A stretch of DNA of 22,751 bases from a virus. Shown here one piece after another: positions 1,572 to 19,097 of the stretch. Where the stretch lies: positions 1 to 22,751 of IMG/VR virus record IMGVR_UViG_3300023215_002059; one strand, given 5' to 3'. Position numbers and translations under genes: made by a program. Position 1 is the first letter of the stretch. Each line of letters starts with the position of its first letter. The notes under the pieces were generated by a model. That model was not told the DNA's origin. It was given only the letters and a program-made list of their open reading frames with translations, and searched no databases.

Positions 1572-3097
1572 GTTAAATCTTCTACTTTTGGTCCCCCATG
1601 TGAGATTACGGGCATATTATTTTTAATAGGATACATATTCTCTTGTTTAAACGCAGACTCATTTTTAATTTCAAGGAAAGACCCCTCTCTAGTATCCTTC
1701 ATAATATGATTCGCTAGGCTTAAACTCATTATTAAATCGTCGTGTCTTCCCCTGTCGGCTGTTATCTTCCCAGCAGCGGTTATTACAAAAGTATTTAGTT
1801 CATTTAAAGTACGTTCTGAGTTAATTTTTAATACATTCGTTCGTATCGCTTCCTCTAATTCAGATAAAATAACGTCTCTGTTTTTAGCGGTTATCTGAAA
1901 CCCGGCAAGCCCCTTCTCATCATGCCATAAATTCTCGTACTCTAATTTATTATAGAGCAAATCTACCACATGATTTCCGATAGTATTTCGCTCTACGACC
2001 ATATTAGCTAGATTATAGTAAATACCTTCCTTGTTTAGTATTGCGGAGAACTCATCGACGGTGGTTTTATTGCTATAGAATTCGGCTACTACCTCTCCGT
2101 TGTATAAATTTACTACTTGAAATGCGGAGTAATCTCTATCTCGTCCTAAAGCAGTATCTACTCCAATGATATACTCATAGTAGGGTTCAGGATCTTTCCA
2201 CACGCGCATTCTATTATTATATTTAATATAATAATCAGAAGATACATTTTCGGCCAAGTGAGAAAGAATAATACCATCAACAAAAGTATCTCCTGTACCC
2301 AAAAACTCACATTCATATTCTTGAAGCCATTGTTTTCTAGGCATATTTGCCTTAGTAATTTTTTCCCACTCATCAACATTAAGTGAGGGGGTTCGATTTA
2401 TCATTTCCTCATAAAGATGTTCGTATCCAGTGTTTCTATGATACTCAGGGTGGGTTTTCCATTTAATATCAATAGCAGTAAATGCGTTAGCGTGTTCTAC
2501 TGCTTTCATATAAGTTTCAAAAAACCAGTTACCTACTCCATTTACAGTGGACAAGATAAACGCACGGCCCCCCGTAGAAATAATTGGGTAAACTGCAGCC
2601 CAGATGGTATCAATAGATTCAATAAAGGCTGCCTCATCAACAATTAGAAAAGATCCAGCTAATGACCGTCCTGATTGTTTTCCTGAGGGACGAGATTTAA
2701 TAATTGATCTATTTTTTAATTTTAGGGTATGCTTATTATCCTCAGAAATTCCAGGTTGTAAGAACTTAGGTAATTCTTCATACATAACTTTAATTCTATC
2801 CAACACTTCAGTTGCTTCTGTATCACCTTTTGAAAGAATAACTATAGCTTGGTGTTTGTGAAAAATAGCCAGCCACAAAGAGTAGGCCGAAGCAATCGTT
2901 GTACATCCTGCCTGTCTAAATTTTCGGAGGATATTAAATCTATTTTTTTGAAGTTCTCCAACAATCATCTCCTGAAATGGGTATAATCTAAAGGGGACCA
3001 ACCCTCGTACAGGATGTGTAACGTGTACATAATTACACATAAAGTATTGCGGGTCTTTTTTACATTTTTTAAATTCTTCTAATATATTATTTTCCAT
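1556..3097 (-). CDS. Terminase large subunit, T4 gp17-like (ATPase-nuclease)
   Basis: Packaging motor that translocates genomic DNA into the prohead and cuts concatemers. The 513 aa show both expected domains. In the N-terminal ATPase there is a variant Walker A (RKFRQAGCTT, residues 58-67), as in many T4-like terminases, and a Walker B with catalytic Glu (FLIVDE, 150-155); the coupling motif is likely STVNG (183-187). In the C-terminal RNase H-like nuclease the acidic residues are D314 (GVDTALGRD), E369 (VVERN) and the HDD at 452-454, in the same order as the three catalytic acids of T4 gp17. An AAGGA Shine-Dalgarno lies about 10 bases before the ATG, inside the oppositely oriented glycosyltransferase gene. 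The 3' end overlaps the portal start. The small terminase subunit is not in the window. Confidence 0.97.
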   Translation of the reverse strand: MENNILEEFKKCKKDPQYFMCNYVHVTHPVRGLVPFRLYPFQEMIVGELQKNRFNILRKFRQAGCTTIASAYSLWLAIFHKHQAIVILSKGDTEATEVLDRIKVMYEELPKFLQPGISEDNKHTLKLKNRSIIKSRPSGKQSGRSLAGSFLIVDEAAFIESIDTIWAAVYPIISTGGRAFILSTVNGVGNWFFETYMKAVEHANAFTAIDIKWKTHPEYHRNTGYEHLYEEMINRTPSLNVDEWEKITKANMPRKQWLQEYECEFLGTGDTFVDGIILSHLAENVSSDYYIKYNNRMRVWKDPEPYYEYIIGVDTALGRDRDYSAFQVVNLYNGEVVAEFYSNKTTVDEFSAILNKEGIYYNLANMVVERNTIGNHVVDLLYNKLEYENLWHDEKGLAGFQITAKNRDVILSELEEAIRTNVLKINSERTLNELNTFVITAAGKITADRGRHDDLIMSLSLANHIMKDTREGSFLEIKNESAFKQENMYPIKNNMPVISHGGPKVEDLTWLMK

Positions 3098-4341: not shown

Positions 4342-4348
4342 AATATGT

Positions 4349-4397
4349 CTCCTTTCTTTCGACAAGGGGGGAAGGAGTCCTATACCAGCAACTCCTT
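4349..4397 (-). promoter_or_regulatory. hsp20 leader with switchable Shine-Dalgarno hairpins (candidate RNA thermometer)
   Basis: Read on the minus strand, AAGGAGT (4397-4391) can pair over 7 bp with ACTCCTT (4378-4372), leaving the real Shine-Dalgarno AAGGAG (4354-4349) free. The same CTCCTT (4377-4372) can instead pair over 6 bp with that Shine-Dalgarno across a 17-base loop. The two helices cannot coexist. A TATAAT on the minus strand (4408-4403) is a possible -10 just upstream, but its -35 is poor. Hsp20 genes are a known class of RNA-thermometer targets (ROSE, fourU). The assignment here is inference from pairing alone. Confidence 0.45.
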
Positions 4398-4476: not shown

Positions 4477-5037
4477 ATGAATTTTGGAACAGTGTACACC
4501 GTAGAATCTTTAGGAGGGAGCCCTAAAGAAGCTGAAGGACAACAATATACCGAGTATCAGTGTTATCAAATAAAAAAATGTGAGATATTAGTTTATATTA
4601 AAAAAGACCCCCTTACTTCCGAAACAAATTTTTTCGCTGTAGGCGAAGCTTCTCTTGATTGCTGTTGTCTTAATATAGATTTTCTATGGCCTGTGGACCC
4701 CAATGGTAATGGTTACACCGATAATCCCATGGATGCAGAAGGGGGAATTACAGAAGGAAGTGTAGAGGAGGGAAGATTTCGGTTCTTTGCATCTTTCTCT
4801 GAAGTGTGTTGCGAACCATGTGCTTGGGTCACGATAGAGTATCCTGGAGCCCTGCCATCAATACAATATAACGCTGCCTGTAAATGCGAAAAAGAAGATG
4901 GTGCCGCGAGCCAAGTACCTTTTAGGGTTAGCGGAACCTACGTTGCGGGCACCGGGGCGGGTTCAACCGATGCTGCGCTGAAGTCGGCTTGTGACCGAGC
5001 AGGTTATGAATTAGGGTTCTGTAAGGGCTGTGGGTGA
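4477..5037 (+). CDS. Cys-rich virion-type protein with M-x-FG N-terminal tag
   Basis: This 186-aa protein has no recognised family, but it is a distant relative of the Cys-rich proteins at 13669, 14377 and 17141. It starts MNFGTVYTVESLGG and then has a CYQIKKCEILVYIKK strand, corresponding to CYYKVKMEG and CYYRLKLTG in the paralogues. Cys-rich clusters follow (DCCCLNIDF, EVCCEPCAW), and it ends FCKGCG. There is no signal peptide. A strong Shine-Dalgarno (GGAGG, about 8 bases upstream) decides the start. It is the only member of the family on the plus strand. The last 45 codons are Gly/Ala/Thr-rich and visibly more G+C-rich than the rest, as if a different 3' end had been attached. The role is unknown; a structural or decoration protein is the best guess. 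Confidence 0.7.
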   Translation: MNFGTVYTVESLGGSPKEAEGQQYTEYQCYQIKKCEILVYIKKDPLTSETNFFAVGEASLDCCCLNIDFLWPVDPNGNGYTDNPMDAEGGITEGSVEEGRFRFFASFSEVCCEPCAWVTIEYPGALPSIQYNAACKCEKEDGAASQVPFRVSGTYVAGTGAGSTDAALKSACDRAGYELGFCKGCG

Positions 5038-5054
5038 ACTATTGGAACATAAAA

Positions 5055-5081
5055 AACTCCCCCTAAAAAATAGGAGGAGTT
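5055..5081 (-). terminator. Terminator of the minus-strand late operon
   Basis: The inverted repeat 5055-5065 / 5071-5081 gives 10 pairs with one C-A mismatch and a five-base A loop. On the minus strand the hairpin is followed by a T-run (TTTTTT, partly within the stem), the form of an intrinsic terminator. It sits between the ends of the plus-strand gene 4477-5037 and the minus-strand operon. On the plus strand no T-run follows, so it is mainly a minus-strand signal. Confidence 0.75.
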
Positions 5082-5159
5082 CTGCGAAGTTCCAAGCACG
5101 AAAAGCGTACCGCTACTTCAAACTTGATCTATGGGTTCCAACCTATTCCTAATTAGTAA

Positions 5160-5423
5160 TCACCTTTTCAAGAATCCCCTACCGTGATATTTAGTAGAAG
5201 GTTTCCTCGCAGTAATTGTCCGTCTTGCTCCTCTTCCAGTTACCCCTTCAGGGTCCTTCCAAGATCTGTTTTCTGCTGAGGTTTTCTTAGCTTGCATTGC
5301 CCTAGGATCGTGAAAACCTCTAAGTTTCATTCCTGACTTTGTTTTTTGTTTGGAAAACTGATGGCCTTTACCTGTCCTTTCTGCCTCTACCAAACTCTCA
5401 TAAATTTTATCTTGCCAATTCAT
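5160..5423 (-). CDS. Small basic phage protein, N-terminus related to 12187 gene
   Basis: Hypothetical 87-aa protein, strongly basic (about a quarter Lys/Arg), ending GRGFLKR. The N-terminal helix MNWQDKIYESLVEAE matches the start of the small basic protein encoded at 12187-12444 (MNPYEKLYDLLIEEA), so both probably carry the same short targeting or docking helix. The body is different in the two. Its ATG overlaps the TGA of the small gene just upstream (ATGA), which suggests translational coupling. It is the last gene of the operon before the terminator. No enzymatic motif is seen. Nucleic-acid binding or packaging into the head is possible from the charge, but this is inference. Confidence 0.7.
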   Translation of the reverse strand: MNWQDKIYESLVEAERTGKGHQFSKQKTKSGMKLRGFHDPRAMQAKKTSAENRSWKDPEGVTGRGARRTITARKPSTKYHGRGFLKR

Positions 5424-5551
5424 ATTAATTTTTTTCCATGTTTTCGTTTGCTCTCTCGAACAAATAAACGCTTGATTTGCTTTTTAAGAAAGTTAACCTT
5501 CTCAAAGTATCTAGGGTCTTTGTTTTTATATCCCTTATTCTTTCTTTTCAA
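5420..5551 (-). CDS. Very small basic protein (43 aa, TTG start)
   Basis: A short minus-strand frame reads LKRKNKGYKNKDPRYF and ends KRKHGKKLI; it is extremely Lys/Arg-rich. There is no ATG: the frame opens at TTG (5551), directly after an in-frame stop, with AGAGGGG about 8 bases upstream as a Shine-Dalgarno. The stop codon overlaps the next ATG as ATGA, the arrangement of coupled phage genes, and this is the main support for it being real. The function is unknown. It could be a DNA- or RNA-binding peptide. If not translated, this is simply a 212-base gap. Confidence 0.5.
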   Translation of the reverse strand: MKRKNKGYKNKDPRYFEKVNFLKKQIKRLFVRESKRKHGKKLI

Positions 5552-5598
5552 TGCTTAAGCCCCTCTAACTAGAGAGATAAGCCCCCTTTCAGCAGTGC

Positions 5599-5613
5599 GC
5601 TACCCTAGGTAGC
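5599..5613. repeat. Small hairpin downstream of the PAAR gene
   Basis: GCTACC and GGTAGC pair perfectly around a 3-base loop in the gap 5552-5635. A T-rich tract follows on the plus strand only, so as a terminator it would point against the operon. On the minus strand it is an inter-cistronic hairpin that may protect the upstream mRNA from 3' decay. Confidence 0.4.
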
Positions 5614-5635
5614 ATATATCTTTTTAAGTTCATAA

Positions 5636-6472
5636 CTATGTAACCCGTAGGCAACTAATAGCAACTACTGGGGATGAATTATCATAATCTATAGGCTCCA
5701 CAACTTGGAGTAAAATATCAACGGCTAATATATAGTACCTATTTTTAAGCACGGGAATAATCGAAAACGGGTTTCCTAATTCTATGCTCCAAGTATCAGA
5801 ACTAGATTGATCAGGGGCAAGATTATTAATAATTCTAGTTTCAATAGGTACAATGTTAGGAAAGGTAAGAGGAGTTTCTTCCGTAATAGTAATAAAGGAG
5901 GGTAATGGCGATAAAGGAGGATAATCCACTTCAAGCCCTAAAACCTCATATAAACCAATTTTAAATGGCCCTGTATGCGATACCCCCTGATTTTGAATAG
6001 AGTAATTGAACACTGTAGGCCCAGGCCACGCAATTAGAGGTGAAGGTACATAGAAAATATATTGATTTGGAGGTACGGCAGGAATAGCGGGAAGCTGCAC
6101 AGTAAATCCAGTAACTACAAGTTGAGGTAATATAGGCTGTCCAGGGCTTGCACCACTTCCAAGAGATCCAGCGGGAGGATAAATCCCCCCGGTAAAAACA
6201 TCAGAACTTCCTGTGGTAAATGCAGCACAATGAGTAGGGGGGAGAGGACAGGGGGGGTGCGCCGTTATAGCATCTCCAGCTACAGATACGGGCTGATCTT
6301 CACAATTTACATACGCACTTCCAGGACCTGTAATTTGTCCTCCTGTAACCGTAGTATTTACTCGAATCTTCGATACTCCCCCATCGTTTACAAATACTGT
6401 AGTACTCCCAAACATAGGATCTAAGCAGGTAGCTAAAGAGGTGGGAGAGGAATTAGTTACCCCATAAGACAT
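5636..6472 (-). CDS. PAAR-like spike-tip protein with C-terminal CARDB-like domain
   Basis: This 278-aa protein appears to have two domains. Residues about 20-96 resemble a PAAR tip: repeated short strands of the form TVFVNDGGVSKI, SAYVNCEDQPVSVAGD and SSDVFTGG, with the pattern GD-x4-HPPCP...HC giving candidate metal ligands H72, C75, H81 and C82. PAAR proteins cap the central spike of contractile tails (T4 gp5.4, T6SS). Residues about 125-275 have the beta pattern of CARDB adhesion modules: YSIQNQGVSHTGPFKIGLYEV early and YYILAVDILLQVVE...DYDNSS at the end, matching the usual N-x-G and D-x-E-x-N-N hallmarks. It starts MSYG, a possible variant of the M-x-FG tag. The start is 3 bases after the upstream stop, with AAGAGA as a weak Shine-Dalgarno. 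Confidence 0.65.
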   Translation of the reverse strand: MSYGVTNSSPTSLATCLDPMFGSTTVFVNDGGVSKIRVNTTVTGGQITGPGSAYVNCEDQPVSVAGDAITAHPPCPLPPTHCAAFTTGSSDVFTGGIYPPAGSLGSGASPGQPILPQLVVTGFTVQLPAIPAVPPNQYIFYVPSPLIAWPGPTVFNYSIQNQGVSHTGPFKIGLYEVLGLEVDYPPLSPLPSFITITEETPLTFPNIVPIETRIINNLAPDQSSSDTWSIELGNPFSIIPVLKNRYYILAVDILLQVVEPIDYDNSSPVVAISCLRVT

Positions 6473-6475
6473 AAA

Positions 6476-6682
6476 TTATCTCTTAGCTCCTAAATCTTTA
6501 TCAGGATCCCCGTAGACCTCAACCCACAGGGAGTCCAAGGAGGTCGGGGTATTTCCTGTTATCTGCTCATATGCCACATCAGGAATTAAAGGACCTTTAT
6601 AAATAACCTTCGGTGCGTGTTTATCAGGATCAGTAAAAGTCCCTTCTGGTTTATTTTTTCTTTTATTGTCCTCAATAAACAT
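6476..6682 (-). CDS. Small hydrophilic protein of unknown function
   Basis: Hypothetical 68-aa protein rich in Lys, Asp and Pro, without signal peptide, membrane segment or Cys. Its ATG overlaps the stop of the lectin-like gene upstream (TAATG), and the next gene begins 3 bases after its own stop, so it sits in a coupled trio between an adhesin and the spike tip. Such a position would suit a chaperone or connector for one of its neighbours. No family was recognised. Confidence 0.65.
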   Translation of the reverse strand: MFIEDNKRKNKPEGTFTDPDKHAPKVIYKGPLIPDVAYEQITGNTPTSLDSLWVEVYGDPDKDLGAKR

Positions 6683-8241
6683 TATCCTAACCCCTTATTA
6701 TATTTAGCTTTTAGAGTATTAAAAAGAATCCTTTTATCCGAAGTATTAAGAACCCCTTCAAGCATTAATATCTCAAAAATATAGCCTTTAAATCCGTGAC
6801 CATATTTACCATCTGTTCCAGCAGGCTCACTTGTAAGTGCAACAGCAGGTAATCCTCCAAGGTAGAGAACTTTCTTATACCACAAAGTTTTGTTTTTCAT
6901 AGCGGGATAACTATGCGGGTATTTCATTAGGTCAAAGTAATGAGCAGGAATTTGGGGATTTGTTCTCGCTTCAGGGGATACACAAATTTCTTTGTTAGTG
7001 TAAACAGGTTTAAGCATTTGCTCTTCTCCTGATCCAAAACCAGGACACCCTTGAGGAGGGTCGTTCGCTGCTCTAGGTAACCAGTCCTTACTAATACCGT
7101 AAACATTTACAGTAGGGCCATCATACGCCTGTAGAAGCTCAGGCCAATTAGTAGGAAGATCCGAATGAGAAGGCCCTGTTATATCTTCGTTTACAAACTC
7201 TAATAAAATAGCTTGGAGTCCTGTCTTTGGAGTTGATTGCTGATCAGGCCAGTAATTGGGGAATCCCCAAATTGAATAACTTGGAACATTTAAAAAACCT
7301 CCATCAGAGCCGCCGCGTTTCGCTTCAATATATCCAATATTGTTTTCTTCCCTAGTAGGAATATAAGGTGAAGGCCACTGAATTCCTGATCCACGGCAAA
7401 CATGCCATCCTTGAGGTCCAAACTTCATCATAGTAGTAGGCCCTCCTCCATTCCCCCAAGTCTGCGGATTGGAAGGAAGATTATTTGGTGTCCCTGCAGC
7501 GTACCAGAATTCAATACCATCGTCTTCAGGACCATTCCAACCGTGTTCTCCCGAAGGAATATCAGGTTGTGCCCCTCCATTAGGACACCAAGGAGACCAT
7601 GGATTATTCGAGCAAAATGTCCAAAAATCCTTTCCGTATGGAGGCCAATTTAATTGAGGGTGTCTACCATAAAGAAGAGCACTATAAGGGCTCACACCTT
7701 GAGAATAGTTATAATGATAGCCATTTCTCATAGACGTATCAGCCGATACTACAAAAAGGAAGGAGGCTCCTGCTCTGCTTCCAGGCCCTGCATAAGATTT
7801 ATCTTGGTATAAAGTTCCACAAGTTGCAAATAAGGGGCCGTCTGACAGATCATACTTAGTAATGACTTCCGCACCTTCAATGCCAAGATATTCTTTTCCA
7901 GTAAAGGATAAAGCTTTGAAAGGTTGTCCTTCAATAATGATCTCAACAAGTCTAGGTGCAGCCTCGTCCCCATAGTAAGTCGAACCAGGGTGTACTACAG
8001 CATCACCTACCCCCCCTCCGTAAGCGTTACTCCATCTTACAACCCTATCATTAATTTGAGCAGGACCCCCTGTAACATCATAAAGATTATGTTCATGACC
8101 TGGGCCAGTTAATTCCCAATCACACCTAAAATGATACCAAGGTAACCCAAACCAAGATTTTTCTGTTAAATCAAGTGGGTACTGTTTGGGAACTCCGACA
8201 TAAGGATGGGGGGTATCACTCCAATTTTGTGGTGCGGCCAT
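6682..8241 (-). CDS. Tail adhesin with LamG/concanavalin A-like lectin fold
   Basis: This 519-aa virion protein is likely to bind a glycan or other host receptor. The N-terminal part has INDRVVRWSNAYGGG, then PRLVEIIIEGQPFKALSF and the strand FTGKEYLGI (residues 113-121). The C-terminus reads GYIFEILMLEGVL, then TSDKRILFNTLKAKYN. These are the first and last elements of phage and bacterial jelly-roll (LamG_3-like) domains, where the final strand is followed by a helix of the type DxxRxxxxxYLxxKY. The long middle, rich in Trp, Pro and Gly (WCPNGG, HGWNGPEDDG), looks like inserted loops. No transmembrane segment or signal is present. The start has AAGG about 10 bases upstream. It stands next to the spike-tip gene, which supports a tail-tip location. 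Confidence 0.65.
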   Translation of the reverse strand: MAAPQNWSDTPHPYVGVPKQYPLDLTEKSWFGLPWYHFRCDWELTGPGHEHNLYDVTGGPAQINDRVVRWSNAYGGGVGDAVVHPGSTYYGDEAAPRLVEIIIEGQPFKALSFTGKEYLGIEGAEVITKYDLSDGPLFATCGTLYQDKSYAGPGSRAGASFLFVVSADTSMRNGYHYNYSQGVSPYSALLYGRHPQLNWPPYGKDFWTFCSNNPWSPWCPNGGAQPDIPSGEHGWNGPEDDGIEFWYAAGTPNNLPSNPQTWGNGGGPTTMMKFGPQGWHVCRGSGIQWPSPYIPTREENNIGYIEAKRGGSDGGFLNVPSYSIWGFPNYWPDQQSTPKTGLQAILLEFVNEDITGPSHSDLPTNWPELLQAYDGPTVNVYGISKDWLPRAANDPPQGCPGFGSGEEQMLKPVYTNKEICVSPEARTNPQIPAHYFDLMKYPHSYPAMKNKTLWYKKVLYLGGLPAVALTSEPAGTDGKYGHGFKGYIFEILMLEGVLNTSDKRILFNTLKAKYNKGLG

Positions 8242-8257
8242 ATAAATGCACCTTACA

Positions 8258-9136
8258 TTAACAACAACTATTTAAGCGTGTTGATTCGTTGATCCAACCT
8301 TTTCTCCAATCATCTATGCACTCATCACCAGTTTGGCGAGGAGGTGGGCACAGCCAATTCCAGGAATCGAACCCGCCAGTCTGCGAACCACCAAAGATTG
8401 CCCACTGCCCCATGTGGAAATTGTACATCTCATGCAAAGCTGTTATAGGTCCAACACTTCCTTGGTCAACAAAAAGCGGGTTAGATTCAAGTAACTCAAA
8501 AATATCTAACCAGTCAGTAAATTTACTTCCTGCACATACTTTTGTTCCATCACCAATAGGCAAGCAGGCAGGAGCATTAAAAATGGTGGAATCTGCTATT
8601 TCTCCTAAAGGAACCCCCGCGAAGCTGCCGTTTGTATAAATTGACGGACTTCTTGGTGAATAATATTTATCCCCACAGTAGTTATTAGGATTAGGAGGAA
8701 TCCAATCCGCCCCCGAACAAGCAAGACCCCGGCAAGGACCGACATGATAAGTATGGGTTAATTTTATTGAACCTTTATAGTATTGAGCCTCCTGAAGACC
8801 CCCTCGTACACCTACCATAATAATACTGGAGTCTCCCTCTCCACTAGATGAAAAACTATCTTCTCCATTAAGATTTTCCTTTTGAGGATCTTCGTAACAA
8901 TCTTGTTCGGAGCAAAACTTCAGATAAAGGTTCCAACCCCCGGAGCAATAACCATTTATACAAATCATATGTGCCGAAAGAACTGATTGTAGTTGTTCAT
9001 GGGCAAAACATCCAGTAGTGAACAGGGCTCCTGACCCAGGTTGATCCGCGTCTCTTGTCCACCATTTCTGTGGAATTAATACCGAGAAAGGCATTGTGTT
9101 TGTATTTCTACCTAGTGTTCTAGTTAATCGAGCCAT
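8258..9136 (-). CDS. Cys/Trp-rich virion-type protein
   Basis: This 292-aa protein of unknown family begins MARLTRTLGRNTN, has many Cys in pairs (ICINGYCSGG, KFCSEQDCYED, NSCC at the end) and several Trp. No signal peptide or enzyme motif is visible. A clear AAGGA Shine-Dalgarno precedes the ATG. The 151 bases upstream (9137-9287) hold no convincing gene but contain a minus-strand ACTATAAAAGAG that could be a T4-late-type promoter core. Its position between adhesin and large paralogues implies a structural role. The Cys content fits the general disulfide-rich character of this operon. Confidence 0.6.
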   Translation of the reverse strand: MARLTRTLGRNTNTMPFSVLIPQKWWTRDADQPGSGALFTTGCFAHEQLQSVLSAHMICINGYCSGGWNLYLKFCSEQDCYEDPQKENLNGEDSFSSSGEGDSSIIMVGVRGGLQEAQYYKGSIKLTHTYHVGPCRGLACSGADWIPPNPNNYCGDKYYSPRSPSIYTNGSFAGVPLGEIADSTIFNAPACLPIGDGTKVCAGSKFTDWLDIFELLESNPLFVDQGSVGPITALHEMYNFHMGQWAIFGGSQTGGFDSWNWLCPPPRQTGDECIDDWRKGWINESTRLNSCC

Positions 9137-9287
9137 ATTTATTTTTCCTTAAGATAATAGAGAGAGGTATTCTCTAAGTATATTTAGTGCTGTTTCCTTA
9201 ATTATTTAGATAATAATTACTGTTTCTCTTTTATAGTAACTATTAATATCCTTCCGAGACACCTGGGACATTACCTCATGGTGGAGG

Positions 9288-10742
9288 CTAATACGGGCCT
9301 AGAAGAGCTTTATCAGTAGCGATAGATTGCCCTTTCCATTGTCTAGCAAAGTCTGCTAGGATTTGATCTATATTAGCATCAGTTAAACTCATGTCTCCAC
9401 AAAATATGTCTGTGTCTAATGCTATGGGTACGGGAAATCCTCCTATCCATCCCGATGTGGCATCTTGTAATGCCTTTTGAAGTTCAAGTTTTATTTGGTG
9501 TAGTCCTTGGGAAACATCATTTTGCCTATTCCCCTCAAAAATATCAGCACCAAAACCAGGATACCGTGCATAACCTGGACCTTCTGAAGCCACCAAAGGA
9601 TTTGTGGCTGCAGTACTTCCATACCCCTCAGTGAAGTGCGGCAGATCAATTGGACGCTCCGCGTCCGAGGGATAAGCCCGCCCACTGTACCAGTAAGGAT
9701 CATTAAAAACTAAATAACCATTCCGTCTAGTATCAGAATCCTGATCACTCAGCCAACGCCCCATCCCCATAGTTCCAGTAATATTTATAGGAACCAGAAG
9801 TTTCATTTGTTTATCCATACATATATTGCCTGCAGCGGTTGTTGTTGTACCGTCAGGGGCAGCACACTCAAAACATATCTTCGGTCCACAAGTTTTAAAA
9901 TATCCAAGCTTAAGATCAAAATTATGATTGAAGGTGCCTGTCATCCCTAAAAGACCCCTCCAATTGTCCCACAAATTTACTTTTTCCCAGGATACACCTC
10001 TTTTGATAAACGGACGCCCATACGAATGATAGACAACCATTCTTGTCTTATCCCACCACAAGCGTCCAGGGCCTTGGAAATTCAGCCTGAACCAGTCCTC
10101 CCATGGTATCTGCCCTATTGGAGGGATGACGGGCTCTGGATCGGGCCAGTGCTGAGTGGTTACACCTAGAGGCCTTCGAAGCATCTTGTAGACCTTTATC
10201 TTTTCAAAGGGGTAAGTATACCTAGTAAATGGTTTTCCGAAGACCTTACTAACAAAGAAAGGACCCAGCCTTGCAGAGGATCCTCCTATAAAGGGGACAA
10301 GCTCGGGCGGATCGGCTCCCATTGACACAGACGTATATTCTTGATCCATTACAGAGGTACAGCCTTGTCCTGCTGCTACCATGGCTTCCGCAGCCTCTTT
10401 CGGCATACATGTTCGCTTACTCTTTCCAGTTATATCAATCTCCCCGAAGATCCCAAAGCTAACCACGTCACCAGCCCCACTATGCCCCCAATTGACTGTT
10501 TGCTCAATTGATAACGAAATTATAAGCATAAGCTCTGAAGCGGTTTCAACACATAACCATGGTCCTGGGATTGTTGGAGGGCCTGAAACGGGTGGAGGGG
10601 TGGATGCTTCGGTAGGAGGACCTGAAACGGGTGGAGGGCCAGATGCATAGGTGCCTGGGCCTGAAGGCTCAAATGGGCGTTTAGCAACTGTTTGTTGGTG
10701 AGGACTTCCTGTAGTAGTAGTAGTTACGTCTCCAAAGCTCAT
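9288..10742 (-). CDS. Large virion-type protein A (tandem paralogue pair), tagged and proline-rich
   Basis: This 484-aa protein starts with the operon tag MSFGDVTTTTTG, followed by VAKRPFEPSG and a proline-rich linker built from a repeated 13-residue unit (PPPVSGPPTEA / PPPVSGPPTIPG). The core then aligns end to end with the next gene upstream: PGPWLCVETASELMLIISLS near the beginning, ENRQ/DRQNDVSQGLHQIKL and LTDANIDQILADFARQWK near the end. No known domain was recognised. Mixed beta strands with scattered Cys suggest an exterior virion protein. An upstream TATATAAATT runs directly into the ATG; no purine-rich Shine-Dalgarno is close, although GGGAG lies 10-14 bases upstream. The tag and linker appear to have been added to, or lost from, only one of the two paralogues. 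Confidence 0.7.
   Translation of the reverse strand: MSFGDVTTTTTGSPHQQTVAKRPFEPSGPGTYASGPPPVSGPPTEASTPPPVSGPPTIPGPWLCVETASELMLIISLSIEQTVNWGHSGAGDVVSFGIFGEIDITGKSKRTCMPKEAAEAMVAAGQGCTSVMDQEYTSVSMGADPPELVPFIGGSSARLGPFFVSKVFGKPFTRYTYPFEKIKVYKMLRRPLGVTTQHWPDPEPVIPPIGQIPWEDWFRLNFQGPGRLWWDKTRMVVYHSYGRPFIKRGVSWEKVNLWDNWRGLLGMTGTFNHNFDLKLGYFKTCGPKICFECAAPDGTTTTAAGNICMDKQMKLLVPINITGTMGMGRWLSDQDSDTRRNGYLVFNDPYWYSGRAYPSDAERPIDLPHFTEGYGSTAATNPLVASEGPGYARYPGFGADIFEGNRQNDVSQGLHQIKLELQKALQDATSGWIGGFPVPIALDTDIFCGDMSLTDANIDQILADFARQWKGQSIATDKALLGPY
10576..10639. repeat. Two 25-base direct repeats, 39-base period, in coding DNA
   Basis: The blocks 10576-10600 and 10615-10639 differ at only two or so positions and encode the repeated proline-rich linker of the tagged paralogue. 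A period of 39 bases keeps the frame (13 residues), so linker length could change by slippage without a frameshift. Confidence 0.8.
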
Positions 10743-10762
10743 AATTTATATACTCCCTATAG

Positions 10763-12025
10763 TCATGGGTAGAAACCCCTGATGACTGGGGCATTCCCCC
10801 CCCCTATTGGAGGGGGTTCTTGGTTGAAAATATCATTAGCGATAGATTGCTCTTTCCATTGTTTAGCAAAGTCCGCCAGGATTTGATTTATATTAGCATC
10901 AGTTAAATTCAGACCCCCACAAAATATGTCGGGGTTTTCACTGGGTAGACCACCTTCGAATGTGGTGACTGCATTTTGCAATAGCTCTTTAAGTCTAAGT
11001 TTTATTTGGTGTAGTCCTTGGGAAACATCATTTTGCCTGTCCCCCTCAAAAATATCTTGACCAAAACCAGGATACCGTGCATAAGCAGGACCTTCTGAAG
11101 TCAGCACAGGAGATGTGAATTCGGAAGGACCTCCAACAAACCTAACATAGCTATCGATCAAATTCCACCCTTCTGCCCACTTCTTGGTTTGGGGTACAGG
11201 ATAAGTCCTATCAATGTACCAGTAATAATCATTAAAAACTAAATAACCATTCCGTCTAGTTTCCGAATCCTGATCGCGCATCCAAGCGTCTAAAGGCATA
11301 GTTCCAGTAATCTCTATAGGAGCCCTAAGGGTAAGAATTCTATTTCTACAGTTAGGACTCCAGGAGTGTGCTATATCTGGTGGGGTTGGACAATCATAAC
11401 ATTTCTTTGGCCCACAATTTTTAATATACTCAATATCAAGATTAAACATATGATGGAAGTTACCTACCCCCGATGAAAAATCGGGCCAATCGTGCCACAA
11501 ATTTACTTTTTTCCAGGATACCTCACTTTCTAGAAACAGAGGAGAGGGACGAATAACTTTAAGCGGCTTGGGAGGATCAGCAGAACCAGGAAGAGCAATA
11601 GAACCAGGAATATCCATCGGGGCGTGGGTAGGCCTAGCTGTATACATACCTATAGTAGGTATTCCCAAACTCTTCCATCTATTAAAGGTCTTAGGGGCAG
11701 ACTTAGTAAATAAACGACCCGCCATTACAAATCCCCCTGCAGCCTCGTCAAAGAGCATGGGGGGATTTCCTCCCATTGATAGAGCCGTATATTTTTGATT
11801 CATTTGAGCGGCACAGCCCTCGTCTAGGTTGAGCTGCAGGGTTTCTGCTGAATAGTGCGGGATGCATCGTCTCCTACTTATTCCATCAATACTAATACCC
11901 CCCAATATCCTAAAGCTAACCGTAGTCATCTGAGTGATTGTTTGCTCAATTGATAACGAAATCGTAAGCATAAGCTCTGAAGAAAGTTCAATACATACAT
12001 AGGGGCCAGGGAGTACATTTACCAT
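10763..12025 (-). CDS. Large virion-type protein B (tandem paralogue pair), untagged
   Basis: This 420-aa paralogue of the 9288-10742 product lies 20 bases from it. Shared blocks include PGPYVCIELSSELMLTISLS at the N-terminus, QDSETRRNGYLVFNDYYW, ARYPGFGQDIFEG and LTDANINQILADFAKQWK. It lacks both the FG tag and the proline linker: translation starts directly at MVNVLPGP, and an in-frame TAA lies just upstream, so no longer N-terminus is possible. The two proteins differ most in the middle (Cys-containing loops), as expected for duplicated surface proteins diverging under selection. No known domain was recognised; they may form a hetero-oligomer or alternative fibre subunits. Confidence 0.7.
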   Translation of the reverse strand: MVNVLPGPYVCIELSSELMLTISLSIEQTITQMTTVSFRILGGISIDGISRRRCIPHYSAETLQLNLDEGCAAQMNQKYTALSMGGNPPMLFDEAAGGFVMAGRLFTKSAPKTFNRWKSLGIPTIGMYTARPTHAPMDIPGSIALPGSADPPKPLKVIRPSPLFLESEVSWKKVNLWHDWPDFSSGVGNFHHMFNLDIEYIKNCGPKKCYDCPTPPDIAHSWSPNCRNRILTLRAPIEITGTMPLDAWMRDQDSETRRNGYLVFNDYYWYIDRTYPVPQTKKWAEGWNLIDSYVRFVGGPSEFTSPVLTSEGPAYARYPGFGQDIFEGDRQNDVSQGLHQIKLRLKELLQNAVTTFEGGLPSENPDIFCGGLNLTDANINQILADFAKQWKEQSIANDIFNQEPPPIGGGNAPVIRGFYP

Positions 12026-12061
12026 AATTTATTCTTTCAACTGAAAGAGCTATTTCCCCCC

Positions 12062-12184
12062 TCACCCGCCTCCAGGTCTTCGTATTGGGCGAGAAGTAGT
12101 ATTTCTTATTTTAGGTAAGGCAGCCCGTACTATAGAAGCAGCAGAGCCAAATTTATTTTTTATATTCATATTTCCAAAACCCAT
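12062..12184 (-). CDS. Tiny tagged basic protein (40 aa)
   Basis: A short frame translated by hand begins MGFGNMNIKNKFGSAASI and ends RPIRRPGGG, then TGA. It carries the M-x-FG start of its neighbours followed by a basic, possibly helical stretch and a Gly tail. The ATG is 2 bases after the stop of the upstream gene, with AAGGA about 9 bases before it, inside that gene's end. Perfect packing into the operon, a Shine-Dalgarno and the shared tag make it a credible gene. It would be a nearly minimal version of the tag, useful for asking what the tag binds. Confidence 0.6.
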   Translation of the reverse strand: MGFGNMNIKNKFGSAASIVRAALPKIRNTTSRPIRRPGGG

Positions 12185-12186
12185 AA

Positions 12187-12444
12187 TTACTTATCCTTAT
12201 ATTTCTTTTTGAGCTTCCCCTTTACCCCAGGCTTATAATGAGGCTTGTCTCCTTTATTTTTCATTGACCACATTAAAGCAAAGATGTTCATCTTCTTAGG
12301 AATATCGCCCCGAGCTTGAGCCTTTTTCATTGCTTCGGCTGTTCCCCCTACTTTAACTCCTTTAGATTTGTCAGCTTTTGTATGTCCCCAATAAGGAGGA
12401 GCTTCCTCAATCAATAAGTCGTATAGTTTTTCATAAGGGTTCAT
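12187..12444 (-). CDS. Small Lys-rich phage protein
   Basis: This 85-aa protein starts MNPYEKLYDLLIEEA, like the start of the 5160-5423 product, followed by APPYWGHTKADKSKG and a Lys-rich tail (GKLKKKYKDK). The N-terminal amphipathic helix is the only part conserved between the two. Proteins of this size with an aromatic/acidic N-terminal helix and a basic body are common in marine T4-like phages, but their roles are unknown. The start codon follows TTAATATG with no clear Shine-Dalgarno. Nucleic-acid or capsid-interior binding is possible from the charge only. Confidence 0.65.
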   Translation of the reverse strand: MNPYEKLYDLLIEEAPPYWGHTKADKSKGVKVGGTAEAMKKAQARGDIPKKMNIFALMWSMKNKGDKPHYKPGVKGKLKKKYKDK

Positions 12445-12469
12445 ATTAATATATAGGAATCTAAATTAT

Positions 12470-13135
12470 TTATTCTAAAATATATCTAACTCTTAGATTA
12501 ACTGAGTTATGGTCTAAAAACTGCATTACCCATAGGTCCTCAGGACAATCAAATAAAAACCTAGTACGCCCCTCAACCCTTACAGTAAATCCTGGTTTTC
12601 TAGGCCCGTTTATCCAATCTAATGCAGCAGCCAAAGTAAGGGTATCACGACTGAAGTGCTTTTTAAATGATTTAGGGCTCGTAAATCCACTGCACCCAAG
12701 TCCATCTATAGTCCCATCAAAGGTACACCACATCGTATGAGAGCCTCCCCCTTCGGTAAAATAATTTACTCCTAAAAGTCTGTCTATAAAAGGACCTTCA
12801 TCTATGTAGAATTTAACTTGATGGTTTACTCTATCCCAAGTTGTAGGCCAGCCTGATAAATTAGGTCCTACATTTTCAAATTTTATTTGATGTGTGGTAT
12901 TGTGAATAATATAAAATTCAATACCTCTTATAGTACCATTAGGATAATAATAGTAAGGAAGCGTTATTTCTTCATACCACGCAGTAGTAAAGTGAGGAGA
13001 AGAATTTGGTACAGGCCAGTATTGGGTAGGTTCTATATGATATTCAAACCAAACATCATTTGCAGGTGGGGCAAGAGAATTTCCACCTGATGTAAGCAGA
13101 AAGGGTAGCAGTAAAAATGCTAAAAATCTTTTCAT
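12470..13135 (-). CDS. Secreted or envelope protein with signal peptide
   Basis: This 221-aa protein has a classical Sec signal peptide (MKRFLAFLLLPFLLTSGG, cleavage perhaps after residue 18-20), followed by a beta-rich domain with aromatic strands (WFEYHIEPTQYW, LPYYYYPNGTIRGIEFYII) and two or three Cys. Its ATG overlaps the stop of the lipoprotein gene upstream (ATGA), so the two are coupled and both are exported. No family was recognised. A partner of the lipoprotein in envelope disruption or superinfection exclusion is a reasonable inference from the pairing; a host-surface binding role is equally possible. Confidence 0.65.
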   Translation of the reverse strand: MKRFLAFLLLPFLLTSGGNSLAPPANDVWFEYHIEPTQYWPVPNSSPHFTTAWYEEITLPYYYYPNGTIRGIEFYIIHNTTHQIKFENVGPNLSGWPTTWDRVNHQVKFYIDEGPFIDRLLGVNYFTEGGGSHTMWCTFDGTIDGLGCSGFTSPKSFKKHFSRDTLTLAAALDWINGPRKPGFTVRVEGRTRFLFDCPEDLWVMQFLDHNSVNLRVRYILE

Positions 13136-13638
13136 TCTACCGAGGGAGGATCAGTAGAACTAGTCGAACTACCTCCTCCAAATACTCCTTTAAGTTTAGC
13201 CGCCCCTAATCCTATCAAAGTTAAAAGAGTTAGCATAGACCCATAAAATCCAGCCCCAAATCTATAAGATCTAGAACCAGTTTCAGGATCTACATCAACT
13301 GAAATGATGGAACCCTCTGGCTCTTTATAAGTATCATATGCATAGTTTTCTCTAATTTTTCTAACGGATACATCTTTATCACCAAAACTAGGAAGTCTCC
13401 AAACAAACCAAGCAGAGGTTATATTTCCATCTATATCTCCACCTTCTTCCCATCTCATATCAGATACAGGACTTCTTCCATGGTCATTAGGAATTATCAT
13501 ACCCTGTCCTCTGCCGTGATAACTTCCATTAAGGAAAGAATTTCCTATACCAAACTCATCTGGCATAATGATATCTGCAAAGTTATCCGCAGTTGCACAA
13601 GATGTTAATAATAGCGATACTAGTATAAACTTTCTCAA
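13132..13638 (-). CDS. Lipoprotein with C-terminal transmembrane segment (u-spanin-like layout)
   Basis: This 168-aa protein has a lipoprotein signal (MRKFILVSLLLTSC, lipobox LTSC with the modified Cys at 14), an extracytoplasmic region of about 115 residues and one hydrophobic segment near 129-148 (GAGFYGSMLTLLTLIGLGAA), then a short Ser/Gly-rich tail. Outer-membrane lipid anchor plus C-terminal membrane helix in one chain is the layout of unimolecular spanins, such as phage T1 gp11, which fuse inner and outer membranes at lysis. The start is TTG at 13638, after an in-frame TAA. It implies a Gram-negative-type envelope if correct. Its place inside the virion operon is unusual for a spanin, so a virion or exclusion lipoprotein remains possible. 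Confidence 0.6.
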   Translation of the reverse strand: MRKFILVSLLLTSCATADNFADIIMPDEFGIGNSFLNGSYHGRGQGMIIPNDHGRSPVSDMRWEEGGDIDGNITSAWFVWRLPSFGDKDVSVRKIRENYAYDTYKEPEGSIISVDVDPETGSRSYRFGAGFYGSMLTLLTLIGLGAAKLKGVFGGGSSTSSTDPPSVE

Positions 13639-13668
13639 AGTTTACCCCCATTATTATATAGTCTTACC

Positions 13669-14376
13669 TTATTTCAAAATAGGACATTTAATATTTTTAT
13701 CCCAATACTGTCCTAAAGCCCCCATTAGCCTATTCTCACACTTGAAGGAATCTGCTTCTCCACCATACCAAAAATCAAGACTAGAAGAAAAAGATCCGCC
13801 AGGTGACCTGCAACTGCCAGCATCTCCTCCGAATGGACCTAGTTTAATTTCATTAATAGTAGTAAACTTAGTTCCCTCACAATCATACGGATCTAAACAG
13901 ATGTCTAATTGATAGGCTGCACACCACGTAAATTTATACACCCGAGGAAATGTTTCTGGTGGATCCTCTATATTTAAAAACTGATCACCCAAAAATATAC
14001 CAGCATCATCTGCGTATTCATTGCAATTTATAGTACCTTCTGGTACACATCTACAAGTCTCAAGAACTTTTATATTCTGTAATACGAATGAACATGATAA
14101 ACCTGTACCTGTTATAGCGATATCAGTAGGCAAAAGAAAAGGATATACCGCAACTGTGCCCGTAGGAACCTGTACACAAGTTTCCTCGAAATACCCTTCC
14201 ATTTTTACCTTATAATAGCAGTATTTTCTATCTTCTCTATTATAAGGAGTTCCATTTCCTGAGGTTGTGCCTCCATTTCCAGATGCTGTGGTTGTAGGAC
14301 CATTGGGGCGTTTAGCAACTGTTTCTCCAAACGTTTGGTGACCTCCTGTAGTAGTAGTTACGTCTCCAAAAACCAT
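13669..14376 (-). CDS. Cys-rich tagged virion-type protein (family member 2)
   Basis: This 235-aa protein has the tag MVFGDVTTTTGG, then FGETVAKRPNGPTT, a Gly/Thr/Ser linker and a Cys-rich domain. It aligns with the 17141 product: CYYKVKMEGYFEETC against CYYRLKLTGKMQEEC, LSCSFVLQNIKV against LSCSFSLTNLTL, a later CENRL, and the ends KCPILK against QCPPISI. At least ten Cys lie in comparable positions. No signal peptide is present, so disulfides would form only after lysis, or the Cys bind metal. The gene starts immediately after the TAG of the upstream tagged gene. The first 70 bases are nearly identical to the first 70 of gene 9288-10742, pointing to recent exchange of the tag region. Confidence 0.7.
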   Translation of the reverse strand: MVFGDVTTTTGGHQTFGETVAKRPNGPTTTASGNGGTTSGNGTPYNREDRKYCYYKVKMEGYFEETCVQVPTGTVAVYPFLLPTDIAITGTGLSCSFVLQNIKVLETCRCVPEGTINCNEYADDAGIFLGDQFLNIEDPPETFPRVYKFTWCAAYQLDICLDPYDCEGTKFTTINEIKLGPFGGDAGSCRSPGGSFSSSLDFWYGGEADSFKCENRLMGALGQYWDKNIKCPILK

Positions 14377-15024
14377 CTAATTACAATCAATCGTTAAATC
14401 ACAATCTTCTACATCATCGGGCGTAAAGCTTAGGAACAGTTGTAGGAGGGCTCTACTACAATCGTTCGATGGATGGTCAAGCATGGACGAGGGCTCAGAT
14501 GAACAAAAATCACCATCCTGATTCCCACCTGTAGGCGGCTCCGTCCATCCCCCCGCGTCTATCATGGTTCGAGTACTAAAAGAGCAAGAAGCACTATCCG
14601 TACACTTATCCGATTCACGACTAGTTGATCCACCCCCATACCCACCAAATGAAGACTCATCCAAAACAGTACAAGGCTCATATAATTTTGTACACTTGAA
14701 AATAATTTCAAACTCTCGTTTTATTCCACCCTTGGATCCATCATCTCCAGGCTCATATGTTATTTCGGGCCATGGGAAGGAGCCACACCCCTCGGGAGGG
14801 TCGCTTCCTGGTTCACACACACATTCCGCAAAGAACTCACCATCTACATATAACCAAGCATCGGAATTTCTATTTTGCACTCCATTAGTGGAACCATATA
14901 GCTTCACTTGAAAGTATGTTCCTCTTACTCCCTCAATTTTCCAGCAAGTCGAGTCTTCTGGGGGTGGTGTAGATCTAGTCTCTCCAAACTGTCCACCTGT
15001 AGTTGTTGTTCCAAATACGCTCAT
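14377..15024 (-). CDS. Cys-rich tagged virion-type protein (family member 3)
   Basis: This 215-aa protein begins MSVFGTTTTGGQFGETR; an ATG seven codons further upstream exists but the start at 15024 restores the tag shared with the neighbours and directly follows the TATAATTAT start motif. The body is Cys-rich with Gly/Pro/Ser linkers: CWKIEGVRGTYFQVKLYG (first strand, as in the paralogues), FFAECVCEPG, then FKCTKLYEPC and an acidic, Cys-containing end (DDVEDCDLTIDCN). It is a divergent member of the same family. The protein is acidic overall and has no signal peptide. Probably a virion surface protein, by context. Confidence 0.65.
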   Translation of the reverse strand: MSVFGTTTTGGQFGETRSTPPPEDSTCWKIEGVRGTYFQVKLYGSTNGVQNRNSDAWLYVDGEFFAECVCEPGSDPPEGCGSFPWPEITYEPGDDGSKGGIKREFEIIFKCTKLYEPCTVLDESSFGGYGGGSTSRESDKCTDSASCSFSTRTMIDAGGWTEPPTGGNQDGDFCSSEPSSMLDHPSNDCSRALLQLFLSFTPDDVEDCDLTIDCN

Positions 15025-15058
15025 ATAATTATATAGGAGCCCCATTATTCAAAATAGG
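15022..15058 (-). repeat. Inter-cistronic junction repeat, copy 1
   Basis: On the minus strand this block ends CTATATAATTATATG, where the ATG is the start of gene 14377-15024. It matches 17633-17669 at about 31 of 37 positions. Read as codons, the upstream half spells PILNNGAPI-stop, resembling the C-terminal KCPILK of the Cys-rich family, so it may be the relic 3' end of a lost paralogue. It could also act as a late promoter, since TATAAT is intact. Confidence 0.6.
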
Positions 15059-15069
15059 AAATGTAATAA

Positions 15070-17136
15070 TTAATTTCCTATGGTTGGTGCCTTTATTTCT
15101 ACAACTATAGAGGAGGGTCCTTGCCCAGAATATGCTTGTGGGTCATTCTGATCCCAGTGCGCTGGAGGGTTATTTCCCTCATTTTCTATAATTCTTATCT
15201 GTAGTCTGGGCCACTGGACAATGCCCGTAGTGGTGGAGTTCGGGCTCCCATCCTCTGCCATGTAAGCGAGTAGGGTTTGGTTAGGTTCATCGTTTGGTCC
15301 TCTCACATCTGCTGCATCATATTTGTATAACGATAATGCCCCAACACCTCCACCACCATGGTCAACCATAGGACCCCAATCTATGATCATAGCACCATTC
15401 TGGTATCCTCCCTCGTCCCAGTGGAGGATATCTGGACCCCCAAAGATATTCCAATTCGATTTCGGACTATACCAAGCCACCCTTCTATAACTAATGAATA
15501 AGTCGTGATCAGCCAAACAATACGGATCCGACCCACAATGCTCCAAACTTAGAGGTCTTTTTATCTTTATCAAATATGGAATATGCCCTTCTCCTGTTGA
15601 GATCGCAGGTGTGCCGCCAGACCCGCTGTGTATGATCTGGAGCGTATCACCGCTCAAAGCCGTTATCGGCGTACTGCCGCGTATTACGAGCACCCACTCC
15701 ACCAAGGGAGAACTTTGCACCACTCCGTAGGCCGACACTTGCACAACCTCGGTCGCCCCCTCCGAGTTGGTGAGTCTTGCGTAGACACCCGCTGGGATAT
15801 CGAGCCCCTCAAAGATTGATACGTCCGCTACGACCCAAATGGTCTCAAACGTGTTAATGTTCGCTAAAAGAGTCGTGCTAGGACCACCGCCTGCCGTGCC
15901 TGCGACCGTTTGTAATGTTGGTTGGTTGTGGTTATCTTCTTTTACCGTTGTTGGAGTATCATGTGCATACAATCTAATAGTATGAGTTTCTCCTACAGAG
16001 GGATCAAGACTTATGACAGCACTATCTGGCAACCATATTCCGTCAACCCCCTGGGAGTGCACCCCTCTAAGATACTTTGTTGAGGCAGTTGGATGCATCT
16101 CAAACACATTATAAGGGTTATTACATCCCCCTCCCAGGGCCATAAGACATAAGTTATCCACCCCCCCATAATTGACATCTGTATCGTTACCGTCATCGCA
16201 AGGAGGCCTAGGCCCATGCAGTCCAAAATCAAAAGGACACCATGTGTTCGCTAACTCAGGTTTATTAGTATGGCCCCAATTAAGAGTATGCATAATCTCA
16301 TGTAGCATAACCCTTTTTACTCTTCCATTTTTTATTAATTCTATACTATCTTCATGGATGTAGCCTCCAGGATCGTTGAGGAGTTCGTGTGCGCCGTGAC
16401 ATGAAGATTGAGTAATCGGGTAGTTCCAACCCACCATCCCATCGGTCCATGTCCAGTTGTTAGTAGCATACTGTCCACGACCTGCGAGAGGGTGGACCTG
16501 TCCAGGAGGTTGTGAGGCCCCCCAATATGCCGAGCTATTCGGGTTACCTCTTGGACACCCTAAAATTAAAGTCGCTTTTATATCACACTCAGGACACATC
16601 TCATTCATAGCTAATTCCGCCACAGTTCTACACCCCCAGCCTACCTGCCACCAATTCGGGCCTTGGAGCAACCAATCACCGTTACATGGGGACATCCAGC
16701 CGTTTTCATCTAGTTCAATATTAGGAACGCATGGAAGATCATTTACAAATCCACCGAGGGGAGTCTCGAAAATCATTACCTGACCACCATTTGGCCCAAC
16801 TAGTTTCGTATTTCCATCGGAAAAATTATATATAGCTTCTTCTAAATCATTAGTTAATGCTTCTCTAATTTCTGTTTCAGTCCAATTCCCCCTCCCCCCT
16901 TCATAAAACTGAGGATAAAAAATACCAATTATAGTTTTCATTTCCCCAACAGTTGTTGATAAACTGGATTGGTTTCCAGTATTATCATCCAGCCAATTCT
17001 CTGCATTAATCAGTTCATCACCAGTTAAGATACACGCTACTCCTGGTGGGTACTTTATGGTATTAGGGTCATACCATCCTGCCATGCGCCCCCATGGTTG
17101 GGGGCCTAATTGTTTTGTTACTTTTCCGAATGTCAT
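15070..17136 (-). CDS. Virion-associated metzincin-type zinc protease, M11 gametolysin-like
   Basis: This 688-aa protein carries the tag MTFGKVTKQLGP. The zinc site HEIMHTLNWGH (residues 279-289) fits the metzincin consensus HExxHxxGxxH except Asn for Gly, with ligands H279, H283, H289 and catalytic E280. A plausible Met-turn, NLCLMALGGG, follows with M332, 43 residues after the third His. The next segment, MHPTASTKYLRGV, resembles the post-Met-turn region of M11 gametolysins, which digest glycoprotein cell walls. Residues about 395-520 look like an inserted beta domain encoded by noticeably G+C-richer DNA. No signal peptide: it is probably carried in the particle and could cut a host S-layer, capsule protein or a phage precursor. 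The ATG follows the TATAATTAT motif, 4 bases after the upstream stop. Confidence 0.75.
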   Translation of the reverse strand: MTFGKVTKQLGPQPWGRMAGWYDPNTIKYPPGVACILTGDELINAENWLDDNTGNQSSLSTTVGEMKTIIGIFYPQFYEGGRGNWTETEIREALTNDLEEAIYNFSDGNTKLVGPNGGQVMIFETPLGGFVNDLPCVPNIELDENGWMSPCNGDWLLQGPNWWQVGWGCRTVAELAMNEMCPECDIKATLILGCPRGNPNSSAYWGASQPPGQVHPLAGRGQYATNNWTWTDGMVGWNYPITQSSCHGAHELLNDPGGYIHEDSIELIKNGRVKRVMLHEIMHTLNWGHTNKPELANTWCPFDFGLHGPRPPCDDGNDTDVNYGGVDNLCLMALGGGCNNPYNVFEMHPTASTKYLRGVHSQGVDGIWLPDSAVISLDPSVGETHTIRLYAHDTPTTVKEDNHNQPTLQTVAGTAGGGPSTTLLANINTFETIWVVADVSIFEGLDIPAGVYARLTNSEGATEVVQVSAYGVVQSSPLVEWVLVIRGSTPITALSGDTLQIIHSGSGGTPAISTGEGHIPYLIKIKRPLSLEHCGSDPYCLADHDLFISYRRVAWYSPKSNWNIFGGPDILHWDEGGYQNGAMIIDWGPMVDHGGGGVGALSLYKYDAADVRGPNDEPNQTLLAYMAEDGSPNSTTTGIVQWPRLQIRIIENEGNNPPAHWDQNDPQAYSGQGPSSIVVEIKAPTIGN

Positions 17137-17140
17137 ATAA

Positions 17141-17635
17141 TTATATAGATATAGGGGGACACTGCATTAAACCTAAACCTTGCCAGTGGCTTTCTACCCC
17201 GGATAAAAGCCTGTTTTCACATCCTTGGTTAGCTAAACTAAGGCCAACACTACATGATCCATCAGTAGGTCCAGTCTTAAAAGCACCCATGCGTTCCTTT
17301 TTATACCCAACACACTTTTCAGTACAAGGACCAACTTGAAAAACTACGCACACAGTAAACCTATGAGATTGACCTGGAAGAGTAGTACTAATATTAGCTT
17401 TACCATCTTCGGAAGCTCCTAACCCACAAGTCATGGGTGAACACTTACATTCCTGTTCGAGAGTAAGATTAGTAAGGGAAAAACTACAAGAAAGAGGCCC
17501 TGACCCGTCTTCACCAGTTGCATAACATTCTTCCTGCATTTTCCCCGTTAACTTAAGCCGGTAATAGCAGGGTTCATATTCAGTTATAGGGGTTCCAAAG
17601 TCCTTATAACGGGCTAAAATATTTCCAAACTCCAT
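17141..17635 (-). CDS. Cys-rich virion-type protein (family member 4), first gene of the late operon
   Basis: This 164-aa protein is the most compact member of the Cys-rich family and probably shows its core: tag MEFGNILARYKDFG, then CYYRLKLTGKMQEEC, LSCSFSLTNLTLEQECKC, a strand HRFTVCVVFQV with a CTEKC pair, GSCSVG and CENRLLSG, ending QCPPISI. It lacks the Thr-rich part of the tag and the linker seen in its paralogue at 13669. The start codon is preceded by CTATATAATTGT and no Shine-Dalgarno. As the promoter-proximal gene of the minus-strand cluster it should be strongly expressed, consistent with a virion component. Confidence 0.7.
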   Translation of the reverse strand: MEFGNILARYKDFGTPITEYEPCYYRLKLTGKMQEECYATGEDGSGPLSCSFSLTNLTLEQECKCSPMTCGLGASEDGKANISTTLPGQSHRFTVCVVFQVGPCTEKCVGYKKERMGAFKTGPTDGSCSVGLSLANQGCENRLLSGVESHWQGLGLMQCPPISI

Positions 17636-18854: not shown

Positions 18855-19085
18855 ATGAACAATCGCCACCTCATCATCTCCCAAGGTGCCCCCACTCTTG
18901 ACGATGGACAATGTGCTGTCCGTGTCGTGGAGGACGGCGAGACTATCCACTTCAACGGTCGCGTGAACTATGGTCTCCCCATCACTAACATCATGGAGGA
19001 GTGGGACTGCTACGAGCTTCGCTACACCAATGGTGCCCGTGAGAAGTTTCTCGGGAAATCTCTTGACCCTAGCCTCCTCACTTGA
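18855..19085 (+). CDS. Small early protein of unknown function (76 aa)
   Basis: This protein (MNNRHLIISQGAPTLDDGQ at the start, FLGKSLDPSLLT at the end) looks like a small beta-rich globular domain with several acidic residues and one Cys; it has no signal or membrane segment. It begins 1 base after the zinc-ribbon stop with no Shine-Dalgarno, consistent with reinitiation. Its last codons contain the -35 of the next gene's promoter. A 147-codon minus-strand frame overlaps it but lacks promoter and start support and is rejected. Confidence 0.6.
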   Translation: MNNRHLIISQGAPTLDDGQCAVRVVEDGETIHFNGRVNYGLPITNIMEEWDCYELRYTNGAREKFLGKSLDPSLLT

Positions 19086-19091
19086 TATAAT
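19063..19091 (+). promoter_or_regulatory. Leaderless-type sigma70 promoter inside the preceding gene's end
   Basis: TTGACC (19063-19068), 17-base spacer, TATAAT (19086-19091), AGACAC, then ATG at 19098. The -35 lies within the coding sequence of 18855-19085, and the -10 begins right after its stop codon. Confidence 0.85.
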
Positions 19092-19097
19092 AGACAC

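Follow-up and report, generated by a model that had tools for sequence, protein, structure and literature searches.

A recurrent M-x-F-G protein start in an uncultured T4-like phage, a candidate docking label for exterior virion proteins

Several genes in a virus record of 22,751 bases, IMGVR_UViG_3300023215_002059, begin with the same few residues followed by different bodies. The record, called the window here and analysed at its full length, is a fragment without a gp23-type capsid or prohead protease gene. Seven of its genes begin M-x(1-2)-F-G (the FG label), and they share a gene cluster with genes whose starts resemble the capsid targeting sequence of phage T4. All seven products have the short start where the original prediction placed it, as genes called on both strands confirm. 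For six or more of 20 genes to have FG at residue 3 by chance, a simple binomial at the FG frequency of the window gives a probability of ~1.5e-9; the calculation assumes independent genes, an assumption that the paralogues 13669 and 17141 break (genes are named by their lower coordinate; Table 1). Because these two are paralogous, there are six independent labelled bodies.

The bodies behind the label had been described as unrelated, and one as a large paralogue. Similarity between bodies is undetectable for the others, but 13669 and 17141 share 28% local identity; 9288 does have a paralogue, 10763, but this copy lacks both label and linker. Most labelled bodies match no Pfam or PHROG family, and the two structure models, of 17141 and of the unlabelled 6682, are weak or unusable. 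The AlphaFold2 model of 17141 shows a beta-rich body and a C-terminal helix at a mean predicted local distance difference test score (pLDDT) of 57, with residues 1-17 below 50; the label residues are low-confidence, as expected of a flexible tail, and a Foldseek search with the model gave no match at E <= 0.001. The metallopeptidase-like protein 15070 itself has no Pfam match and no PDB sequence match; its homologues lie in L018, L127 and G003 (four). No homologue was detected for the 40-residue peptide 12062. The unlabelled protein 6682 has no Pfam match, and its AlphaFold2 model (mean pLDDT 32) is unusable.

The start of gene 14377 can be placed by comparison. An in-frame ATG at 15045, upstream of 15024, falls in a promoter-like repeat. 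The ATG that follows TATATAATTAT is the likely start codon in both this gene and a gene of L013, because in L013 the equivalent upstream ATG is followed by a start conforming to the consensus of the second label described below. The MSYG start of the PAAR-repeat protein, suggested as a further copy of the label, is probably not one: PAAR homologues begin MRGIERHG, MVGITTTN, MSIQNMPR and MLLVARG. An N-terminus 'PVSGVSGxG' that recurs across the cluster was also considered; it belongs to a single body family and is no label.

Table 1. Labelled genes of the window and other features discussed in the text
Position	Strand	Product	N-terminus	Basis or remark
17141..17635	-	FG-labelled protein, 164 residues, Cys 7%	MEFGNILAR	Gene call and AlphaFold2 model
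15070..17136	-	FG-labelled zinc metallopeptidase-like protein, 688 residues, HEIMHTLNWGH (HExxH)	MTFGKVTKQ	hhalign 97% to family
14377..15024	-	FG-labelled Cys-rich protein, 215 residues	MSVFGTTTTGG	Start placed at 15024, not 15045
13669..14376	-	FG-labelled Cys-rich protein, 235 residues	MVFGDVTTTTGG	Paralogue of 17141; N-terminal module in common with 9288
12062..12184	-	FG-labelled basic peptide, 40 residues	MGFGNMNIK	Gene calls; tightly packed between neighbours
9288..10742	-	FG-labelled protein, 484 residues	MSFGDVTTTTTG	Paralogue is 10763
4477..5037	+ (opposite strand)	FG-labelled Cys-rich protein, 186 residues	MNFGTVYTV	Ortholog in L007
10763..12025	-	Unlabelled paralogue of 9288, body without label		43% local identity
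6682..8241	-	Unlabelled protein, 519 residues, LamG/ConA-like by eye only		Homologues labelled in L044 and G007
12187..12444	-	Second-label basic protein, 85 residues	MNPYEKLYDLLIE	Consensus match
5160..5423	-	Second-label basic protein, 87 residues	MNWQDKIYESLVE	Consensus match
5636..6472	-	PAAR-repeat protein	MSYG	Pfam PF05488, E 3.5e-4 (below curated cutoff); PHROG 281
1556..3097	-	Large terminase subunit, T4 type		Pfam PF03237/PF17289; query for finding relatives

The original prediction proposed searching related phages for the label. In IMG/VR, scanning with the terminase turned up 79 related loci (62-91% identity), not counting the same genome, and an endolysin-side scan added further loci, many of which belong to other phage kinds. 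The carriers are uncultured T4-like phages, mostly marine; against the best listed phage records, the window terminase reaches only 31-35% identity. With the pattern M-x(0-3)-[FY]-G, the search found some 19 further labelled proteins in nine related records (L007/L008, L015, L042/L044, L051, L055, L080, L084, L127 and the long contig G007). L042 and L044 encode an identical protein and L007 and L008 near-identical ones; L004-L006 are the same genome as the window and count as no independent evidence. The further proteins include one metallopeptidase of the 15070 family and the ortholog of 4477 (L007 165-707), which retains MGFGTKYT at 26% identity. Variants of the label comprise in-frame insertions (MSVFG, MAGFG, MPNFG) and a Y-G form. 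The 130.6-kb contig G007, the longest relative, is also present in a single-cell assembly (L179, QCKN01000003.1) that bears the title Prochlorococcus sp. AG-409-P03, which suggests a cyanobacterial host for it. No cultured member of the lineage turned up in the collections searched. Relatives of 9288, 13669, 15070 and three cargo proteins of related phages were sought in 50,697 phage records, and none was found; when viral contigs were scanned with the alignment of 9288 and 10763, with the window metallopeptidase and with a G003 metallopeptidase, no match lay outside the same genomes. The GC content of the window goes up past 17.9 kb, and a chimeric contig was considered; this is not supported, because homologues of the right-hand genes adjoin the same cluster in L013 and L030.

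Comparisons between bodies with and without the label show how freely it is distributed. About 56 residues of label and linker present in 9288 are missing from 10763. The 6682 family, unlabelled in the window, is labelled in L044 (MAFGQIPPTRTRSFGS) and G007 (MFGTTATGGSFFGS), and its G003 member begins MVGKTG. When 21 body groups were compared with hhalign, only the metallopeptidases (window 15070, L018, L127 and G003; 97%) and the N-termini of 13669 and 9288 (79%) were joined, the latter pair being alike over the first 34-36 residues only; the remaining cross-family matches were below 20%, several of them confined to the N-terminus. On these comparisons, the label behaves as a module whose gain or loss does not depend on the body. 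The eight residues that follow the label resemble each other more among proteins of one phage than across phages (permutation p 0.009); this likeness is supporting and not decisive, since the list was picked by the motif itself and eight pairs, judged to be related through their bodies or their source, were left out.

The label had also been thought a possible cleaved propeptide. T4-type prohead proteases recognise a short motif and cut after its Glu. An [LIVM]xE sequence is absent between residues 6 and 30 in 22 of 25 FG-labelled proteins; a propeptide of the T4 type is rejected for want of an LxE site. In composition, most FG-labelled proteins contain 4-7% Cys (background 1.2%) and 5-13% Lys and Arg, and they are mostly rich in Gly and Pro. 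The label thus differs from the T4 capsid targeting sequence in having no cleavage-type [LI]xE site and in heading cargo that is Cys-rich and non-basic, where the T4-type class is small and basic.

The second N-terminal label has just these properties. Its consensus, MN[WST][YQ][ED][RK]IYxxLxE, heads 64 distinct small basic proteins with 16-32% Lys and Arg and nearly no Cys. These proteins were selected by residues 1-7, and at positions outside the selecting pattern they have Y8 in 47/64, L11 in 50/64 and E13 in 49/64. Their genes are found in the window, in L011 (25-4240, nine in a row) and in L013, L015, L030, L066, L111 and L127. The relative G003 encodes a gp23-type capsid protein (PF07068, E 6.6e-75) and an S77 prohead protease (PF03420, E 5.1e-23). 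In T4, IPII and IPIII start MKTYQEFIAEA and another internal protein starts MKTFKEFT; residues 4 and 7 of IPIII are important in targeting, and residues 8 and 10 in processing (PMC9026906). The second label resembles the T4 peptide in length, in residues 4 and 7 and in its Glu cleavage-type site. Because of these conserved residues, the basic, Cys-poor cargo, the likeness to the T4 peptide (judged by eye) and the capsid and protease genes of G003, we read it as a T4-type capsid targeting sequence with predicted cleavage.

As read from the sequences, the FG label is real: its frequency in the window is far beyond chance, relatives have it too, and it carries no apparent prohead-protease site. 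Since it is real, recurrent and modular, the docking or sorting signal originally proposed is the best reading of the common N-terminus; for the docking itself, we infer that the carriers are in the virion and on its outside, that the label and not the body attaches, and that one dock serves all. Our preferred explanation, to which we give about an even chance, is that M-x-F-G is a short uncleaved docking peptide displaying exchangeable proteins on the particle exterior. Proteins that are folded and mostly Cys-rich or enzyme-like would be attached by it at a single kind of exterior site, in the tail or baseplate network or on the head surface. The second label would send small basic proteins into the head, giving two address labels for two classes of cargo. 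Placement on the exterior is proposed mainly because the cargo is Cys-rich and non-basic and a head-protease site is absent. That four uncleaved residues form a general address bringing unlike proteins onto one exterior site, beside a head-interior label, with cargo recruited by the label alone, is a tentative claim that we lean somewhat against.

Several observations weigh against docking on the exterior. Cys makes up just 0-2% of the metallopeptidases, 9288 and the 6682 family, and the basic peptide 12062 is a labelled exception that resembles the second-label cargo class. Several relatives have few labelled proteins or none. The core label is four variable residues (F/Y, and V/I/L-G in G003 and L018 if counted), and because it is so short and variable some of the proteins listed may be chance matches. 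The permutation test behind the within-phage likeness used a list that the motif itself had selected. No member of the T4 gp10-like family was found among the scanned tail proteins of G003 and G007, and no dock was identified.

The nearest known arrangement is that of the branched receptor-binding-protein systems of K1-5, SP6 and G7C and of the Klebsiella KP32, KP34, Menlow and phiK64-1 groups (PMC6872550). There, N-terminal peptides of down to seven residues, different in each phage group, are thought to anchor diverse receptor-binding and enzyme proteins, and a short conserved N-terminus is the presumed means by which second receptor-binding proteins join the anchor (PMC6872550). The FG phage likewise has one short N-terminal peptide on several otherwise unrelated predicted proteins. 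The branched systems differ in that their cargo is mainly depolymerase tailspikes and the dock in several groups is T4 gp10-like, whereas FG cargo is Cys-rich and metallopeptidase-like, with up to seven carriers per contig. The capsid targeting sequence of the T4 internal proteins IPI, IPII and IPIII is, like FG, a short conserved N-terminus on diverse proteins (PMC9026906, PMC3012670). If FG docks on the head surface, a possible outcome is that of Hoc and Soc, dispensable proteins shown on the outside of the T4 head; set against FG by description only, they have no common four-residue N-terminal label in the available part of PMC3012670.

The DNA around the starts bears on a different account, in which the label is left over from exchange of gene starts: recombination would have spread a cassette of promoter-like motif and first codons among late genes, with no docking. 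The 15024 and 17635 starts have ~37 bases 5' of the ATG in common in addition to the label, and the 14376 and 10742 starts share a patchy 60-base N-terminal stretch with in-frame insertions and deletions. GGA is generally favoured in early codons of these phages, being the label Gly codon in 22 of 26 cases and 57% of Gly codons at positions 2-8 of other genes (residual p 0.003-0.009). A DNA element (TTTGGA) in place of a peptide was considered and is mostly accounted for by this general bias; the in-frame insertions and the Y-G variant suggest that the label acts at the amino-acid rather than the DNA level. The motif CTATATAATTRT abuts the ATG upstream of 17635, 17136 and 15024 in the window, of two genes in L127 and of one in L013, and the genes behind it carry FG, M-V-G-K (L013) or capsid-targeting-like starts (MNSYEK in L127). 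Since this promoter-like motif is common to the genes of both labels, it provides no explanation of FG, and motif and label are unlinked. The 14376 and 10742 starts have the label in common but not the upstream sequence, and the L007 ortholog keeps the label despite its divergence. Exchange of gene starts is, in our view, unlikely.

If CTATATAATTRT is a promoter, it leaves nearly no 5' leader. A 39-base repeat resembling a sigma-70 promoter likewise ends at the ATG of right-hand genes (18334-18372, 19062-19100, 21305-21343 and 22217-22255), which suggests leaderless or near-leaderless messages.

The label could also be a second, uncleaved signal for the head interior, with the labelled proteins ejected into the host with the DNA. 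The cluster shared with capsid-targeting-like genes fits such a signal, and the metallopeptidases and the 40-residue basic peptide could work in the host; however, labelled proteins are mostly Cys-rich, non-basic and without LxE, unlike the internal-type class of the same genomes, and we consider this quite improbable. Most doubtful is that the labelled proteins are not in the virion and do their work in or outside the lysing cell, their common start serving expression or another interaction: Cys-rich proteins and metallopeptidases suit an extracellular place and the same cluster also has signal-peptide-like and lipobox-like genes (12470-13638), but the FG N-termini show no signal peptide by eye and the G003 homologues are placed among structural genes.

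If the FG label docks, exterior virion cargo would become predictable by a simple sequence rule in these uncultured, mostly marine phages, where most FG cargo proteins match no known family. The capsid-targeting-like label would, if true, be a second rule, for proteins that are packaged inside the head and enter the host from there.

Some neighbouring features can be recorded. Within the cargo cluster, the genes at 12470-13135 and 13132-13638 (both minus strand) start with what look like signal peptides, and in the second there is a lipobox-like LLTSC. The tail module of G003 includes a 1055-residue protein with a sulfatase domain (PF00884, E 9.8e-23; L119 1275-4442, minus strand). Near the window terminase, 3847-4365 (minus strand) encodes an Hsp20-family protein, with close homologues near the terminase in relatives. 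At 3095-3098, the letters CATG supply the start codons of both the terminase and a glycosyltransferase-like gene that diverges from it, and this 2-base overlap is repeated at L007 2083/2084, L015 9975/9976 and L030 8356/8357.

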